Positions 46,145 to 50,020 of a stretch of DNA of 64,000 nt are shown piece after piece (position 1 is the stretch's first letter; the number at the start of each line of letters is the position of its first letter). Source of the DNA: Novosphingobium sp. SG751A (GTDB lineage Bacteria; Pseudomonadota; Alphaproteobacteria; Sphingomonadales; Sphingomonadaceae). The position numbers were made by a program, and so were the translations under genes. The notes beneath the pieces were generated by a model. It did not search any database. It was given only the letters and a program-made list of their open reading frames with translations, and was not told where the DNA came from. The stretch covers positions 62,001 through 126,000 of the forward strand of contig NZ_JABGCB010000002.1 of the NCBI RefSeq assembly GCF_013149295.1, written 5' to 3'.

Positions 46145-46454
46145 GGTGGGGTGGCGATAGGGAAAAGTGGGGGGGCTGCCAAGAAGAAGGTTTTGCCTCC
46201 GGCGGGCTTTGATGTGCCTCCGGCGGGCAAAGGGCGGGGGCCCTTTGCAATCCCGTTAATGGGGGGAGGCTGGCCAGGGGGTGTTTAGAGGAGTGAAAGC
46301 CTGCGGCGCGGTAGGGTCAGGCCTGTCCGCGCCGCAGGCTTTCCATTTCAACCTCGCGTCCGACACGCAACGCCGCCGCCCTTGCGCTACGCAGACAGTA
46401 ATGGGAGCGCGAGGGACGAGTCCCTCGCATCTTGACTTTCCTTAATCAAAACAA
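46145..46454. repeat. REP-like repeats, pair G/H with inner perfect 17-bp inverted repeat
   Basis: Non-coding stretch between ccmA and the glycosylase gene. Copy G (46192-46255) holds a partial duplication: TTTTGCCTCCGGCGGGC is followed by a second, complete unit from 46214. The inner inverted repeat is perfect: GAAAGCCTGCGGCGCGG (46295-46311) with CCGCGCCGCAGGCTTTC (46327-46343). The right side (H, about 46394-46436) keeps the CAGTAATGGGA flank but has a different palindrome, GCGAGGGAC/GTCCCTCGC (46409-46417 and 46420-46428). Confidence 0.85.
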
Positions 46455-47072
46455 TCACAAAGCCGCATTGTTATAGCAATGCCACGTAAAGATCGCCGCC
46501 GCGCCCCGATGGGGCCGCCACCCTTCGGCCAATATCCGCGTCTGCTTCTCGCTTGGCCGCTCTGGCAGTCCCAGCAATTTGCCAAGGCCGATCTGGACGG
46601 CAAGGTCGCCGGCGGGCCAGATGTCGGGGCGGCCTTCGGCGAAGAGGAGGTAGATTTCGGCCGACCAGCGCCCGATGCCCTTGATGCGGGTGAGGAGGGT
46701 GATGGCTTCCTCGTCATCGGCGGGCAGGGCGGAAAAATCGAGTTCGCCCGCCAGCACCATTTCGCACAGCGACCGCGCATAGGACTGTTTCTGGCGCGAG
46801 AGGCCGCAGGCGCGCAAAGTATCGAAATCGGCGGCCAGCAGCGCGGATGGATCAGCCTCCTCGCCCGCAACGCCCACCATTTTGGCCCACATGGACGAGG
46901 CGGCGGCTACTGAAACCTGTTGCCCCACGATGGTGCGCAGCATGGTGGCATGGCCGCGCGCGCGGATGCGCGGCTCGGGCAATCCCACCCGGCCGAGCGC
47001 TTGCGCAATGCCCGGCGTGGTTTGCGCAATGGCATTCAGCCCCTTTTCAATCGCTTCTGCCGAAAGTCCCAT
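46455..47072 (-). CDS. DNA-3-methyladenine glycosylase II family (AlkA-like, HhH-GPD)
   Basis: The 205-residue protein has the HhH-GPD fold: ATMLRTIVGQQVSVAAASSMWAKM, then the helix-hairpin-helix LLTRIKGIGRWSAEIYLLF followed by the catalytic Asp in WPAGDLAV (Asp156). It should remove alkylated bases (3-methyladenine type) from DNA as the first step of base-excision repair. The N-terminal AlkA beta domain is absent, as in the smaller bacterial members. ATG 47072 is chosen; the frame extends to a TTG at 47162 without support. It is divergent from the ferredoxin gene with ~140 bp between starts. Confidence 0.87.
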   Translation of the reverse strand: MGLSAEAIEKGLNAIAQTTPGIAQALGRVGLPEPRIRARGHATMLRTIVGQQVSVAAASSMWAKMVGVAGEEADPSALLAADFDTLRACGLSRQKQSYARSLCEMVLAGELDFSALPADDEEAITLLTRIKGIGRWSAEIYLLFAEGRPDIWPAGDLAVQIGLGKLLGLPERPSEKQTRILAEGWRPHRGAAAIFTWHCYNNAAL

Positions 47073-47214
47073 TTGTGCCCGTTTCGTGAATGGAAATGAC
47101 AAAATTTTGCGCAATTCGGCCTGTTGCCAAACCGGCGGCTTGCCGATAGCAGCCGTGGCCAAGCGCCGTTGCGCTGCGCTTCATATAACTGCGCATCATA
47201 CAGAGGGATTTGAT

Positions 47215-47532
47215 ATGCCGAAGCTGGTGATCGTCAATAGTGCGGGTGAAGAAAAGGAAGTCGAGGCCCAGACCGGCCGCACGGTGATGGAAGTGATTCG
47301 CGATGCGGGTTTTGACGATCTGCTGGCGCTGTGCGGGGGCTGCTGCTCCTGCGCGACGTGCCATGTGCATATCGACCCGGCCTTTGCCGACAAGCTGCCC
47401 GCGATCAGCGCCGACGAAGACGACCTGCTGGACAGCAGCGACCACCGCGACGGCAATTCGCGCCTGTCGTGCCAGTTGCCCGTGACCGACGCCATCGACG
47501 GCATGCGCGTGACGATTGCCGAGGCGGACTGA
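47215..47532 (+). CDS. 2Fe-2S ferredoxin, adrenodoxin type
   Basis: The 105-residue protein carries a [2Fe-2S] cluster motif C-x5-C-x2-C (Cys40, Cys46, Cys49) with the fourth ligand Cys86 in RLSCQLP. Acidic residues (SADEDDLLDSSD) near the cluster and the overall length fit adrenodoxin/putidaredoxin-type ferredoxins that pass electrons to cytochromes P450 or to Isc assembly. No P450 or reductase gene is adjacent. AGAGG precedes ATG 47215 by 8 nt. Extra cysteines at 43 and 44 lie next to the cluster and are a little unusual. Confidence 0.93.
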   Translation: MPKLVIVNSAGEEKEVEAQTGRTVMEVIRDAGFDDLLALCGGCCSCATCHVHIDPAFADKLPAISADEDDLLDSSDHRDGNSRLSCQLPVTDAIDGMRVTIAEAD

Positions 47533-47582
47533 TCTTTTGGGGCCGCGCCGGGTTTCGCGCGCGGGTTTAAAAGCCTGACTTT

Positions 47583-47628
47583 AGGGGTGCCTTGCGCAAA
47601 TGCATTGCGCGTTGCGCAAGGCGCCCCT
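47583..47628. promoter_or_regulatory. 17-bp inverted repeat in the leader of the cysteine synthase-like gene
   Basis: AGGGGTGCCTTGCGCAA (47583-47599) and TTGCGCAAGGCGCCCCT (47612-47628) match at 16 of 17 positions around a 12-nt loop, ending 12 nt before the ATG at 47641. TTGCGCAA occurs in both arms and TTGCGCG lies in the loop. It is not followed by T residues, so it is not an intrinsic terminator. It could be an operator or an mRNA hairpin controlling translation. Confidence 0.65.
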
Positions 47629-47640
47629 ACCTAGGGCGGC

Positions 47641-48648
47641 ATGACGAAAGCGCCCGTTTATCAAAACACCCTCGATCTGATTGGCAACACCCCGATGGTC
47701 CTTTTGAAAGGGCCGAGCGAGGCGGCAGGTTGCGAGATCTGGGGCAAGTGCGAATTTGCCAATCCGGGGCAGAGCGTGAAGGATCGCGCCGCCTTGTGGA
47801 TCATCCGCGATGCGGAGCGCTCGGGCGCGCTTAAGCCCGACGGCACGATTGTCGAGGGTACGGCGGGCAATACGGGCATCGGCATCGCGCTGGTCGCCAA
47901 TGCGCTGGGCTATAAGACGATCATCGTCATGCCCGAAACCCAGAGCCGCGAGAAGATGGACACGTTGCGCGCGCTGCGGGCCGAGCTGGTGCTGGTGCCG
48001 GCCGCGCCCTTCAGCAATCCGGGGCATTTCGTGCATACGTCGCGCCGTCTGGCCGAGGAAACCGAGGGCGCGATCTGGGCCAACCAGTTCGACAATACCG
48101 CCAACCGCAAGGCCCATATCGAATCGACCGCGCCGGAAATCTGGGAACAGATGGAAGGGCGGCTTGATGGTTTTACCTGCGCGGCGGGCACGGGCGGCAC
48201 GCTGGCGGGCGTCGGGCTGGGGCTGAAGGCGTTTGATGAGAACATCACCATTGCGCTGACCGATCCCTATGGCGCGGCGCTGTATAATTACTATGCCCAT
48301 GGCGAGTTGAAGGCCGAAGGCAGCAGCGTGGCCGAGGGCATCGGGCAGGGGCGGATCACCGCCAATCTGGACGGGGCGCCGATCGACACGCAATTCCGCA
48401 TGTCGGACGCGGAAGGGCTCGAATGGGTCCGCCGCCTGCTGGCCGAGGAAGGCCTTGCGCTGGGCCTGTCGAGCGGGATCAATGTCGCGGGGGCGGTGGC
48501 ATTGGGGCGCAAGCTGGTGGCCGAGGGCAAGAAGGACGCGCGCGTCGCCACGATCCTGTGCGACACCGGGCTGCGTTATCTCTCCACGCTCTATAACAAG
48601 GCGTGGCTTGAGGCGAAGGGGCTGCCGGTCTTTCCTTGGCTGGCGTGA
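47641..48648 (+). CDS. Cysteine synthase A family PLP enzyme
   Basis: The 335-residue protein is a fold-type II PLP enzyme related to CysK. It has LIGNTPMVLLKGPSE, the PLP lysine in NPGQSVKDRAA (Lys47), the phosphate loop GTAGNTGIGIA and the C-terminal GLSSGINVAGAVALGRKL. CysK makes cysteine from O-acetylserine and sulfide; related enzymes (cysteine desulfhydrase, cystathionine beta-synthase) share this pattern, so the exact reaction is uncertain. The substrate loop PETQSREKMDTLRALRAELVLVP is of the cysteine synthase/Cds1 type. A 17-bp hairpin in its leader may regulate it. Confidence 0.85.
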   Translation: MTKAPVYQNTLDLIGNTPMVLLKGPSEAAGCEIWGKCEFANPGQSVKDRAALWIIRDAERSGALKPDGTIVEGTAGNTGIGIALVANALGYKTIIVMPETQSREKMDTLRALRAELVLVPAAPFSNPGHFVHTSRRLAEETEGAIWANQFDNTANRKAHIESTAPEIWEQMEGRLDGFTCAAGTGGTLAGVGLGLKAFDENITIALTDPYGAALYNYYAHGELKAEGSSVAEGIGQGRITANLDGAPIDTQFRMSDAEGLEWVRRLLAEEGLALGLSSGINVAGAVALGRKLVAEGKKDARVATILCDTGLRYLSTLYNKAWLEAKGLPVFPWLA

Positions 48649-48666
48649 TGGAGTAAGATCCGCGCG

Positions 48667-48984
48667 ATGACGGAGATTTCCACCCCAAGCGATCCGGCCA
48701 CCTCGGAATTTGAGCGCACCCCGCGCGAAATCCGCGCGCAGATGGTGCAGCGTTTGCAGGTGGGCCTGTTCGGCCTGTCGCTGATGCTGCTGCTGGTGGG
48801 GCTGGCCAATATCATCATGGACAATGCGCGGCGCAACGATGCCGCCGCCGCCAGCGCGCAGGCCAGCACCAGCGCGGGGGGCAGCAGCGATCCTCTGGCC
48901 GACATTGGCGTCATTCCTTCGCCCGATGCGGGCAAGGTGCAAGCGGGCGCATCGCCCCGCGTGACGCCCGCCGCGCCGCATTGA
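48667..48984 (+). CDS. Hypothetical single-helix membrane protein
   Basis: The 105-residue protein has a charged N-terminus (residues 1-31), one membrane helix (VGLFGLSLMLLLVGLANIIM) and a Ser/Ala/Gly/Asp-rich, probably periplasmic tail. No family is recognised. It follows the cysteine synthase gene by 18 nt, so the two are probably co-transcribed. Codon use matches the neighbours, which supports it being a real gene. Confidence 0.65.
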   Translation: MTEISTPSDPATSEFERTPREIRAQMVQRLQVGLFGLSLMLLLVGLANIIMDNARRNDAAAASAQASTSAGGSSDPLADIGVIPSPDAGKVQAGASPRVTPAAPH

Positions 48985-49519
48985 TCGGCGTTCTTCTCCG
49001 CGCGCGCAGATCGGCGCGGGAAAACCTGCCACTTTTGGGAAAACCTGCCACCGGCGGGAAACTGTGCCACCTGCGGGAAGACCTGCCGTAGTCGGGAAAA
49101 TGCGCCACCGGGCGGCACCTTGGCGCAACAATCGGGCAAAATAACGGGAATCATGCGGGATTCGCGAATCTCTGTATGCGGGAATCGGCGGGAAGGGTCG
49201 TTTTCCACCCATGGCGAACCTCGGGAAATTACGGAATTGACGTGCTCTCAGAGGTGGTTTGGTAATGATTTGGTAATAAATTGCCGTTGAGCGTAGCGTT
49301 ATATAAACCTGAAAAATAAGGGAATTTTCATTCTTTTCCACAAAGTGGCAGATTTTCCCGCAAAGTCCCTTTCCCGCCCGCAGACTCCGCGATAGAACAT
49401 GATCATCGGGTAGAGTTTCAGCCGTCCTTTTGCGGGGGTTTGGCGTGGCCTTGGCGCTGCGGCAATCGGCGAAGCTTTGCCCAATTGGTGGGGCTTTCTT
49501 CGCAAAGGTAGTGGGTGGG
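48985..49519. promoter_or_regulatory. 535-bp control region upstream of the dcw cluster
   Basis: Non-coding region before mraZ. In order: five tandem 19-bp repeats (49018-49112); four GANTC sites (49148-49186); an AT-rich part with a direct repeat TTTGGTAAT at 49258-49266 and 49269-49277; a DnaA-box-like TTTTCCACA (49334-49342); an inverted copy of the 19-bp unit (49342-49359); and a fifth GANTC site (49383-49387). A TATAAA at 49302-49307 could be a -10 element. The dcw promoter must lie here; the exact start of transcription cannot be read. Confidence 0.6.
49018..49112 (+). repeat. Five tandem 19-bp repeats upstream of mraZ
   Basis: Units begin with GGGAA at 49018, 49037, 49056, 49075 and 49094, an exact 19-bp pitch. 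Units 1 and 2 share GGGAAAACCTGCCAC; units 3-5 are variants (GGGAAACTGTGCCAC, GGGAAGACCTGCCGT, GGGAAAATGCGCCAC). A reverse-complement copy, AAGTGGCAGATTTTCCC, occurs at 49343-49359. Confidence 0.85.
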
Positions 49520-50020
49520 GTGACTGGTTTCCCGGTCATTTATATGGGACAGGGCTTCTCGCCGAAGGGCGACAAGGAGCGCTTCGTCCTGCCTGCCGAC
49601 ATCCGCAAGATCGTGGCCGAGGCCAGCGACAACATTAACGAGATGCTGGTGGCCCGCCATGAAGAATGGCCCTGTCTGTTCGCCTGCGGCACGTCCTATC
49701 GAAACCAGCTTGCCGAGGAAATCCGTGTGAAGCATGCCGCCGATGTGGCCGCCGGTCGCCCCTCTACCCGGGCGCGTGATGCGTTGGTCTTTGGCAATCT
49801 GACGCGCGTGGCCTTTGACAATTCGGGCCGCTTTATCCTGCCCGCGCACATGCGCGCCCAGGCTTCGATCACGGATGGGCTCTATATCCACGGTACGATG
49901 GACTATTTCACGCTGTGGTCGCCCGAAGTGCTGATGGCGATGGCGGGCGATGAATGGATCGGGCCCAAGGCGAGCTGCGAGAGCTATCTGGCCGCAGCGG
50001 GCGGGAGGGCGCGCAAATGA
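49520..50020 (+). CDS. mraZ: Transcriptional regulator MraZ
   Basis: MraZ is a ring-forming DNA-binding protein that represses the dcw operon it heads. The 166-residue product has the two SpoVT/AbrB-like modules: [20 protein letters not shown] and [17 protein letters not shown]. The usual DxKGR is GDKER in the first module, so that half is divergent; the second keeps the SGR core. GTG 49520 is chosen because it aligns with homologue starts ([13 protein letters not shown]); ATG 49544 is possible, and open sequence extends to 49430. Its stop overlaps the rsmH start (ATGA). Confidence 0.88.

Follow-up and report, generated by a model that had tools for sequence, protein, structure and literature searches.

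The gap in front of mraZ in Novosphingobium sp. SG751A, as seen in the 64,000-nt stretch of DNA analysed here (the window), houses an array of five 19-bp units which on sequence grounds is probably, at a probability of about 0.7, an auxiliary operator placed upstream and read by MraZ, the product of the first dcw gene and its own regulator. The array would act as an enlarged docking array: MraZ rings would hold a loop and repress the promoter, and the array would tighten or buffer this autorepression. The features on which the argument turns are listed below; positions count from the first letter of the window.

49016-49043, + strand: inverted-repeat arm of 28 nt, matching the promoter-proximal operator (89% complementary to 49334-49361)
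49018-49108, + strand: distal array, five 19-bp units or ten boxes, [C/T]GGGA alternating with [T/C]GCCA at steps of 10 and 9 bp
49146-49160, + strand: two GGGA at a step of 11 bp (GGGAATCATGCGGGA), present in 2 of the 5 close genomes
49180-49193, + strand: GGGA-N6-GGGA, a distal MraZ-type pair of a kind found in most near relatives; proximal box 2 lies 176 bp downstream of it
49223-49235, + strand: GGGA then GGA at a 10-bp step; 3 of the 5 close genomes have it in identical form
49334-49361, - strand: inverted copy within the proximal operator, with TTCCAC, GTGGCA (box 1) and TTTCCC (box 2)
49345-49379, - strand: proximal operator, with box 1 TGGC at 49346, box 2 TCCC at 49356, box 3 TCCC at 49366, an extra TCCC at 49372 and box 4 GCCC at 49376
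49391-49397, + strand: putative -10 element GATAGAA, 35 bp after box 2, assigned by position only
49544-50020, + strand: mraZ, 158 aa, the likely reader of the boxes (Pfam PF02381, predicted structure), followed by rsmH

The array in the gap before mraZ

The array, a non-coding one situated before the mraZ/dcw promoter, lies in the 559-bp intergenic gap between a small ORF (48667-48984) and the mraZ start at 49544. Its units begin at 49018, 49037, 49056, 49075 and 49094, at a pitch of exactly 19 bp, and GCCAC follows at +10 in four of the five (49028, 49047, 49066 and 49104), unit 4 having GCCGT at 49085 in its place. Each unit consists of two MraZ-type boxes, GGGA and GCCA, at 10 + 9 bp, thus the array amounts to ten boxes of 5 bases each, arranged head-to-tail at a mean spacing of about 9.5 bp. 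A previous sequence-only reading had described five 19-bp repeats with an inverted copy, placed upstream of mraZ, and this description was borne out: the steps are exact, the inverted repeat extends over 28 nt, and when the 559-bp gap was shuffled 2000 times with its dinucleotides preserved, no shuffle contained more than two GGGAA at one exact step (8-40 bp). When all 5-mers were considered in 500 shuffles of the intergenic region, at most 3 copies were found at one exact step. The array is the sole run of at least 5 copies of any 5-mer at an exact 8-40 bp step in the 64-kb window, and among the 63 rows given by Tandem Repeats Finder it has the highest score, 104.

The window group, as we call it, consists of five close Novosphingobium genomes with near-identical loci, the source genome included. 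The earlier reading proposed a comparison of the region with related genomes; the pitch and the position of the array were retained in all four close relatives, and among the loci compared the five-unit array is confined to these five genomes. In several of them unit 4 is degenerate: L039 has a damaged copy, and in L042 the unit is displaced by 1 bp. When the 25 orthologous units of the five genomes were compared, GGGAA (positions 1-5) and GCC (positions 11-13) were 92-100% identical, and the remaining 11 positions 40-76%, with the exception of position 9 (84%): the box cores are preserved while most spacer positions drift. The distance of the first array box from proximal box 2 is 338-339 bp in 5/5 genomes of the group. 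Single GGGA/GCCA composites occur in L043, L044, L048 and L067, one in each.

Just downstream of the array four GANTC sites, GANTC being the CcrM-type motif, fall within about 40 bp (49148-49186) and form the densest such cluster of the 64-kb window. Several of them coincide in part with GGGA boxes, in the form GGGAATC, and the operator could therefore be affected by methylation. The small ORF preceding the gap codes for a membrane-like stretch and has no Pfam match; by eye, a similar coding stretch was seen in the DNA at the same place in L042-L047, and DPLAELGV precedes rsmH in genome G024.

The iteron style attributed to the array by the sequence-only reading was not supported. Plasmid iterons were rejected, as there was no plasmid match and the array stands beside mraZ-rsmH, in the dcw region of a 440-kb contig. 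Directly before proximal box 1, at 49334-49342, there is a TTTTCCACA conserved in the five close genomes, which resembles a DnaA box. This element and the tandem repeats would suit replication-type iterons or a DnaA/oriC element, but the GC skew is positive in 15 of the 16 blocks of the window and has no turning point, and we consider such an identity hardly credible.

Another repeated element was noticed at 46395-46428, where the window carries a 34-nt hairpin (ACAGTAA-N-GGGAGCGCGAGGG..CCCTCGC) that is found at 59 other places of the genome; the search for it, allowing up to 3 mismatches, gave 60 genome copies and the reversed control pattern none. The hairpin occurs with two stem versions, GGGAC/GTCCC and GGGTC/GACCC, in which the changes are paired, as one would expect if the stem is conserved. 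The copy at 46395-46428 had no match in Rfam, and a search of 46200-49600 returned no RNA family up to an E value of 1.

Promoter-proximal boxes and the second box type

The comparisons rest on three sets of loci. The main sample consists of the regions upstream of mraZ at 199 loci of the genus and the family (59 loci and 140 added ones), and leans to near relatives because mostly the better-matching loci were taken; the 180 loci called near below are those left after removal of 19 whose box 1 is GTGG[C/G]. The wider set has 50 loci, the best 20 from other Sphingomonadales families and the best 30 from other alphaproteobacterial families. The third set, assembled later, contains 60 loci of more distant family members, making 259 with the main sample.

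The proximal operator has the tandem arrangement of an MraZ operator, with TGGC, TCCC, TCCC and GCCC at 10-bp steps. Chains of at least two TCCC at 9-11 bp steps were present between -270 and -120 before mraZ in 177/180 near loci and in 9/19 loci of the GTGG[C/G] group; none of the 199 loci had one in the control stretch -120..0. At least two TCCC at the same pitch, mostly as TCCCAT, were found in 31/50 loci of the other families of the order and class, a count whose denominator retains one locus that could not be parsed and a few that are probably mis-anchored. The proximal pair was also present in 39/60 of the more distant loci. Downstream of the boxes G[AGT]TA occurs at favoured offsets (35 bp in 61 and 24 bp in 33 of 186 loci), although one of the box alignments rewards G[AGT]TA and is not independent evidence for that element. 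A sigma-70 scan of 48900-49600 gave no match at the scan threshold, therefore the -10 element is called putative and placed by position only.

Box 1 of the window differs from the TCCC boxes. A loose pattern for GTGGC..TTCCC, admitting total lengths of 12-17, detected 18 of 59 loci, and all 18 had length 15; with this constant spacing TGGC precedes box 2 by a single step of exactly 10 bp. By register the GTGG[C/G] group comprises 19 of the 199 loci, one of which, L049, carries TGGG, and since the group was defined by that register the 18/19 agreement within it is by construction. The group forms one clade of the MraZ tree (FastTree support 98, one change) and needs 2 changes in a 59-locus RsmH tree, a result that agrees with vertical descent. 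On its opposite strand the proximal operator reads GGGA followed after 10 bp by GCCA, and the array repeats that with a 9-bp step between. An upstream GGGA with GCCA exactly 10 bp after it was found in 9/19 loci of the group vs 5/180 elsewhere (Fisher 1.3e-7; 2.7e-4 when the five near-identical loci are counted once).

The alternate box is found outside this clade as well. GG[C/T]A stands 10 bp before CCC in 11 of the 60 distant loci, which belong to several genera; most other spacings gave 0-5 loci, and spacings of 20 and 30 bp gave 8 each. Under a stricter rule in-register GG[C/T]A was present in 29/259 loci, a few of which may be chance matches, vs 1-6 at seven shifted offsets. On the MraZ tree (FastTree, long branches flagged) its distribution takes 12 changes, of which starred branches force at least 9. 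Because of the register and the recurrence across genera, our preferred reading of the second box type is that of an MraZ box variant which has arisen recurrently, T-CC-CA having become T-GG-CA. Half of the array boxes have the known core, GGGA, and the other half have GCCA, for which register and recurrence are the evidence; among the published MraZ boxes of the accessible literature we did not meet a GCCA/TGGCA box.

It was considered whether two proteins share these sites, MraZ reading GGGA/TCCC and a second regulator, arrayed with MraZ, having taken over the alternate GTGGCA/TGCCAC. GTGGCA and TCCC differ in two central bases, AAAGTGGCA is fully conserved across the five genomes of the window group, and canonical GGGA pairs (GGGA-N6-GGGA) persist in 17/19 loci of the GTGG[C/G] group, all of which such a composite site would explain. 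We nevertheless regard it as improbable, as the alternate box keeps the 10-bp register both at the promoter and in the array and recurs in other genera, and as the 5.7-Mb genome has 3 exact GGGAAAANNTGCCAC sites, every one of them at mraZ. Two of the six one-mismatch sites are there as well. When 2 mismatches were allowed, the composite pattern had 124 genome sites, fewer than its reversed control (167), and GGGA pairs were not enriched genome-wide either (105 vs 112 for the control), therefore the argument for specificity draws on the exact sites and their clustering.

Two other explanations of the TGGC box were rejected. An acid at MraZ residue 12 (K-E/D-R), without one at residue 93, occurs in 16/19 group members and in none of the 180 others, but all 19 belong to a single clade, outside which the 10 proteins that have an acid at residue 12 lack a TGGC box, and KGR proteins elsewhere have GGCAT boxes. 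Reading GTGGC in the opposite orientation, as the Mollicute AAAGTGG, does not fit the held-out loci, where GGCAT and CCCAT alternate in one orientation.

The opposite-strand pair and its helical phase

The second site of the operator region, the pair GGGA-N6-GGGA, lies on the strand opposite to that of the proximal boxes. It was found between -650 and -250 in 150/180 near loci, vs a mean of 3.9 (maximum 9) in shuffled sequences; the reverse-strand version was found in the same interval in 6/180, and GGGA pairs at 10 bp were found in the proximal region of none of the 180. Among the order and class loci the distal pair is present in 3/50 (L221, L227 and L228), and among the more distant family members in 19/60.

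The distance from the distal pair to box 2, 176 bp in 5/5 genomes of the window group, takes preferred values in the 124 loci where it was determined, near 111, 122, 133, 143, 154-155, 165, 176 and 188; off-phase distances (139, 150, 194 and 237, for example) also occur. The first test of all loci with this anchor made no correction for relatedness. Because the box-2 anchor could slip by one box, the test was repeated with the -10 element as anchor, by rules that use no box position apart from a C-rich filter. This left 100/199 loci with one pair and one -10 each, after 51 had been dropped for having no pair in range, 31 for having more than one pair and 17 for an unclear -10. The best period of the distance from the pair to the -10 was 10.7 bp (R 0.61, n=100), and the control distance, from the -10 to the gene start, gave R 0.02-0.05 (at 10.5 and 10.8). 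From the distal pair to the gene start there was a weak period near 11 (R 0.17-0.23, reaching 0.25), and the sister differences of this interval showed no periodicity.

Comparison of sister loci pointed in the same direction. Among 50 closest-relative pairs 22 differ by at least 4 bp, and their mean cosine at 10.5 bp is 0.61 (z 4.1), a value reached in 0/20000 trials of a jitter null; the same measure in two control intervals was 0.03 and 0.07. A subset of 15 differences, picked post hoc (tree distance <0.8, differences up to 60), reads 9, 10, 11, 11, 12, 12, 13, 20, 20, 21, 21, 22, 32, 42 and 43. The sequence between the two sites has diverged heavily, and sister pairs differ by real indels or by the use of another GGGA pair. 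Held-out phasing in the 60 more distant loci had 5 usable loci (191, 192, 199, 201 and 226; z 1.31, not significant), so it is in the near-relative sample that we find the helical phase expected of a looped bipartite operator.

DNA loops classically betray themselves by operators that stand apart and yet keep their helical phase, and the stepping of the distal distance to the -10 by about 10.5 bp between relatives suggests looping here. The layout is like that of araI-araO2, gal and lac, looped operators which also have two separated sites in helical phase; here the reader would be an MraZ ring, and the loop itself is a prediction. MraZ most probably binds the promoter boxes and hinders RNA polymerase, and its rings probably occupy the proximal and the distal sites together, holding the intervening DNA in a loop which would repress the mraZ-rsmH-fts-mur promoter. 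The ten-box array of this Novosphingobium lineage would add to the layout common in near relatives, a promoter TCCC series with an opposite-strand upstream GGGA pair, by raising the local occupancy of MraZ and so tightening or buffering autorepression.

The array could also be a decoy, its extra boxes soaking up MraZ and setting the threshold of autorepression by titration without any loop. Ten boxes in 91 bp would be well suited to this, and the units would rotate around the helix, since a 19-bp pitch does not correspond to full turns. We think it unlikely, though deserving more weight than a site shared with a second regulator, because the upstream GGGA pair holds its helical phase in near relatives and the first array box keeps its distance to box 2 throughout the close genomes. 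The auxiliary operator remains our preferred reading of the array. A wider version of it, covering Novosphingobium and related Sphingomonadaceae, is tentative, and we would put it a little short of even odds: one or two MraZ rings may bridge the promoter operator and the same-face upstream inverted operator, and box evolution (alternating GG/CC boxes, ten-box expansion) may tune the switch by lineage.

MraZ and its operators in other bacteria

The protein encoded at 49544-50020 has the Pfam match, the fold and the dcw synteny of the MraZ family. It matches PF02381 at 26.5 bits (cut-off 23), rsmH (MraW) adjoins it, and its predicted structure (pLDDT 91) has five MraZ entries as its best solved matches (VIA-align Z 13.6-14.4). 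The top match is an MraZ-promoter complex, and two of the five show the M. genitalium protein on promoter DNA. Its closest named relatives are from Novosphingobium, that of N. sediminicola DSM 27057 being 99% identical, and with 34-47% identity to most aligned homologues it is a divergent member.

Seven genomes gave no MraZ match; three of these also lacked an rsmH match and one had a weak rsmH fragment. As the search missed a divergent MraZ which by eye is encoded in G122, lack of MraZ is a statement about the locus and not surely about the genome. This leaves two informative genomes: MraZ was not detected in G024 and G109 (loci L274 and L273), 2.1-Mb, 99% complete and AT-rich genomes of one genus which have kept rsmH, and the 1500 bp before rsmH contain no TCCC or GGGA pairs at 9-11 bp in either. 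The boxes thus go with mraZ, as judged from two related genomes, where MraZ and the boxes, but not rsmH, appear to have been lost from the dcw locus, perhaps in a single event.

These two genomes bear on the proposal of the sequence-only reading that the 19-bp pitch, being longer than the ~10 bp of known MraZ boxes, points to another regulator. That proposal is probably wrong: the 19-bp unit is two boxes at the ordinary MraZ pitch (10 + 9), the inverted copy shares its register with the conserved promoter box series, and the box pairs are missing before rsmH where MraZ is undetectable. For an unrelated dcw regulator, e.g. a response regulator or a cell-cycle factor, one could cite the existence in Alphaproteobacteria of other regulators acting on division and envelope genes, CenKR and NtrYX, and the GANTC cluster next to the array. 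Against it stand the 28-nt inverted copy common to the array and the promoter series and, again, the joint absence of box pairs and MraZ, and we hold it to be very unlikely.

With MraZ as the probable reader, the operator can be set beside those known from other bacteria. The E. coli MraZ boxes are reportedly TGGGN, three times at a 10-bp pitch. The core GGGA and the ~10-bp direct repeats at the mraZ promoter are shared with E. coli, whereas the second site on the opposite strand, the alternating GG/CC boxes and the ten-box upstream array are not. The MraZ site of Burkholderia cenocepacia has four 7-nt repeats with 3-nt spacers, hence the same 10-bp pitch and four promoter repeats, but it is located downstream of the -10 over the start site, whereas here the boxes are upstream of the putative -10 and a distal array is added (PMC7761207). 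The Mollicutes operator consists of AAAGTG[T/G] direct repeats (PMC8475190); by their titles, PDB entries 9r4j and 9sz7 show MraZ together with its promoter and a 4-box promoter. The box series before mraZ and the protein fold are alike in the two cases (Z 13.6-14.4), and box sequence, box number and the two-site layout are different. MraZ is described as an octameric ring in Mollicutes (PMC7761207).

Descriptions of MraZ sites in this bacterial group were not found in the open-access literature, nor were descriptions of an alternating box code, an upstream ten-box array or a phased opposite-strand site. MraZ boxes as such were already known, and these last three features, as judged from sequence, would be the new part.

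MraZ is widely conserved, yet its loss had no apparent phenotype in E. coli (PMC8475190). For its control of the dcw cluster a two-site, helix-phased operator, if true, would offer a concrete mechanism in which a ring protein represses by looping, and the recurrent GG/CC box switch would provide a natural series for studies of specificity.
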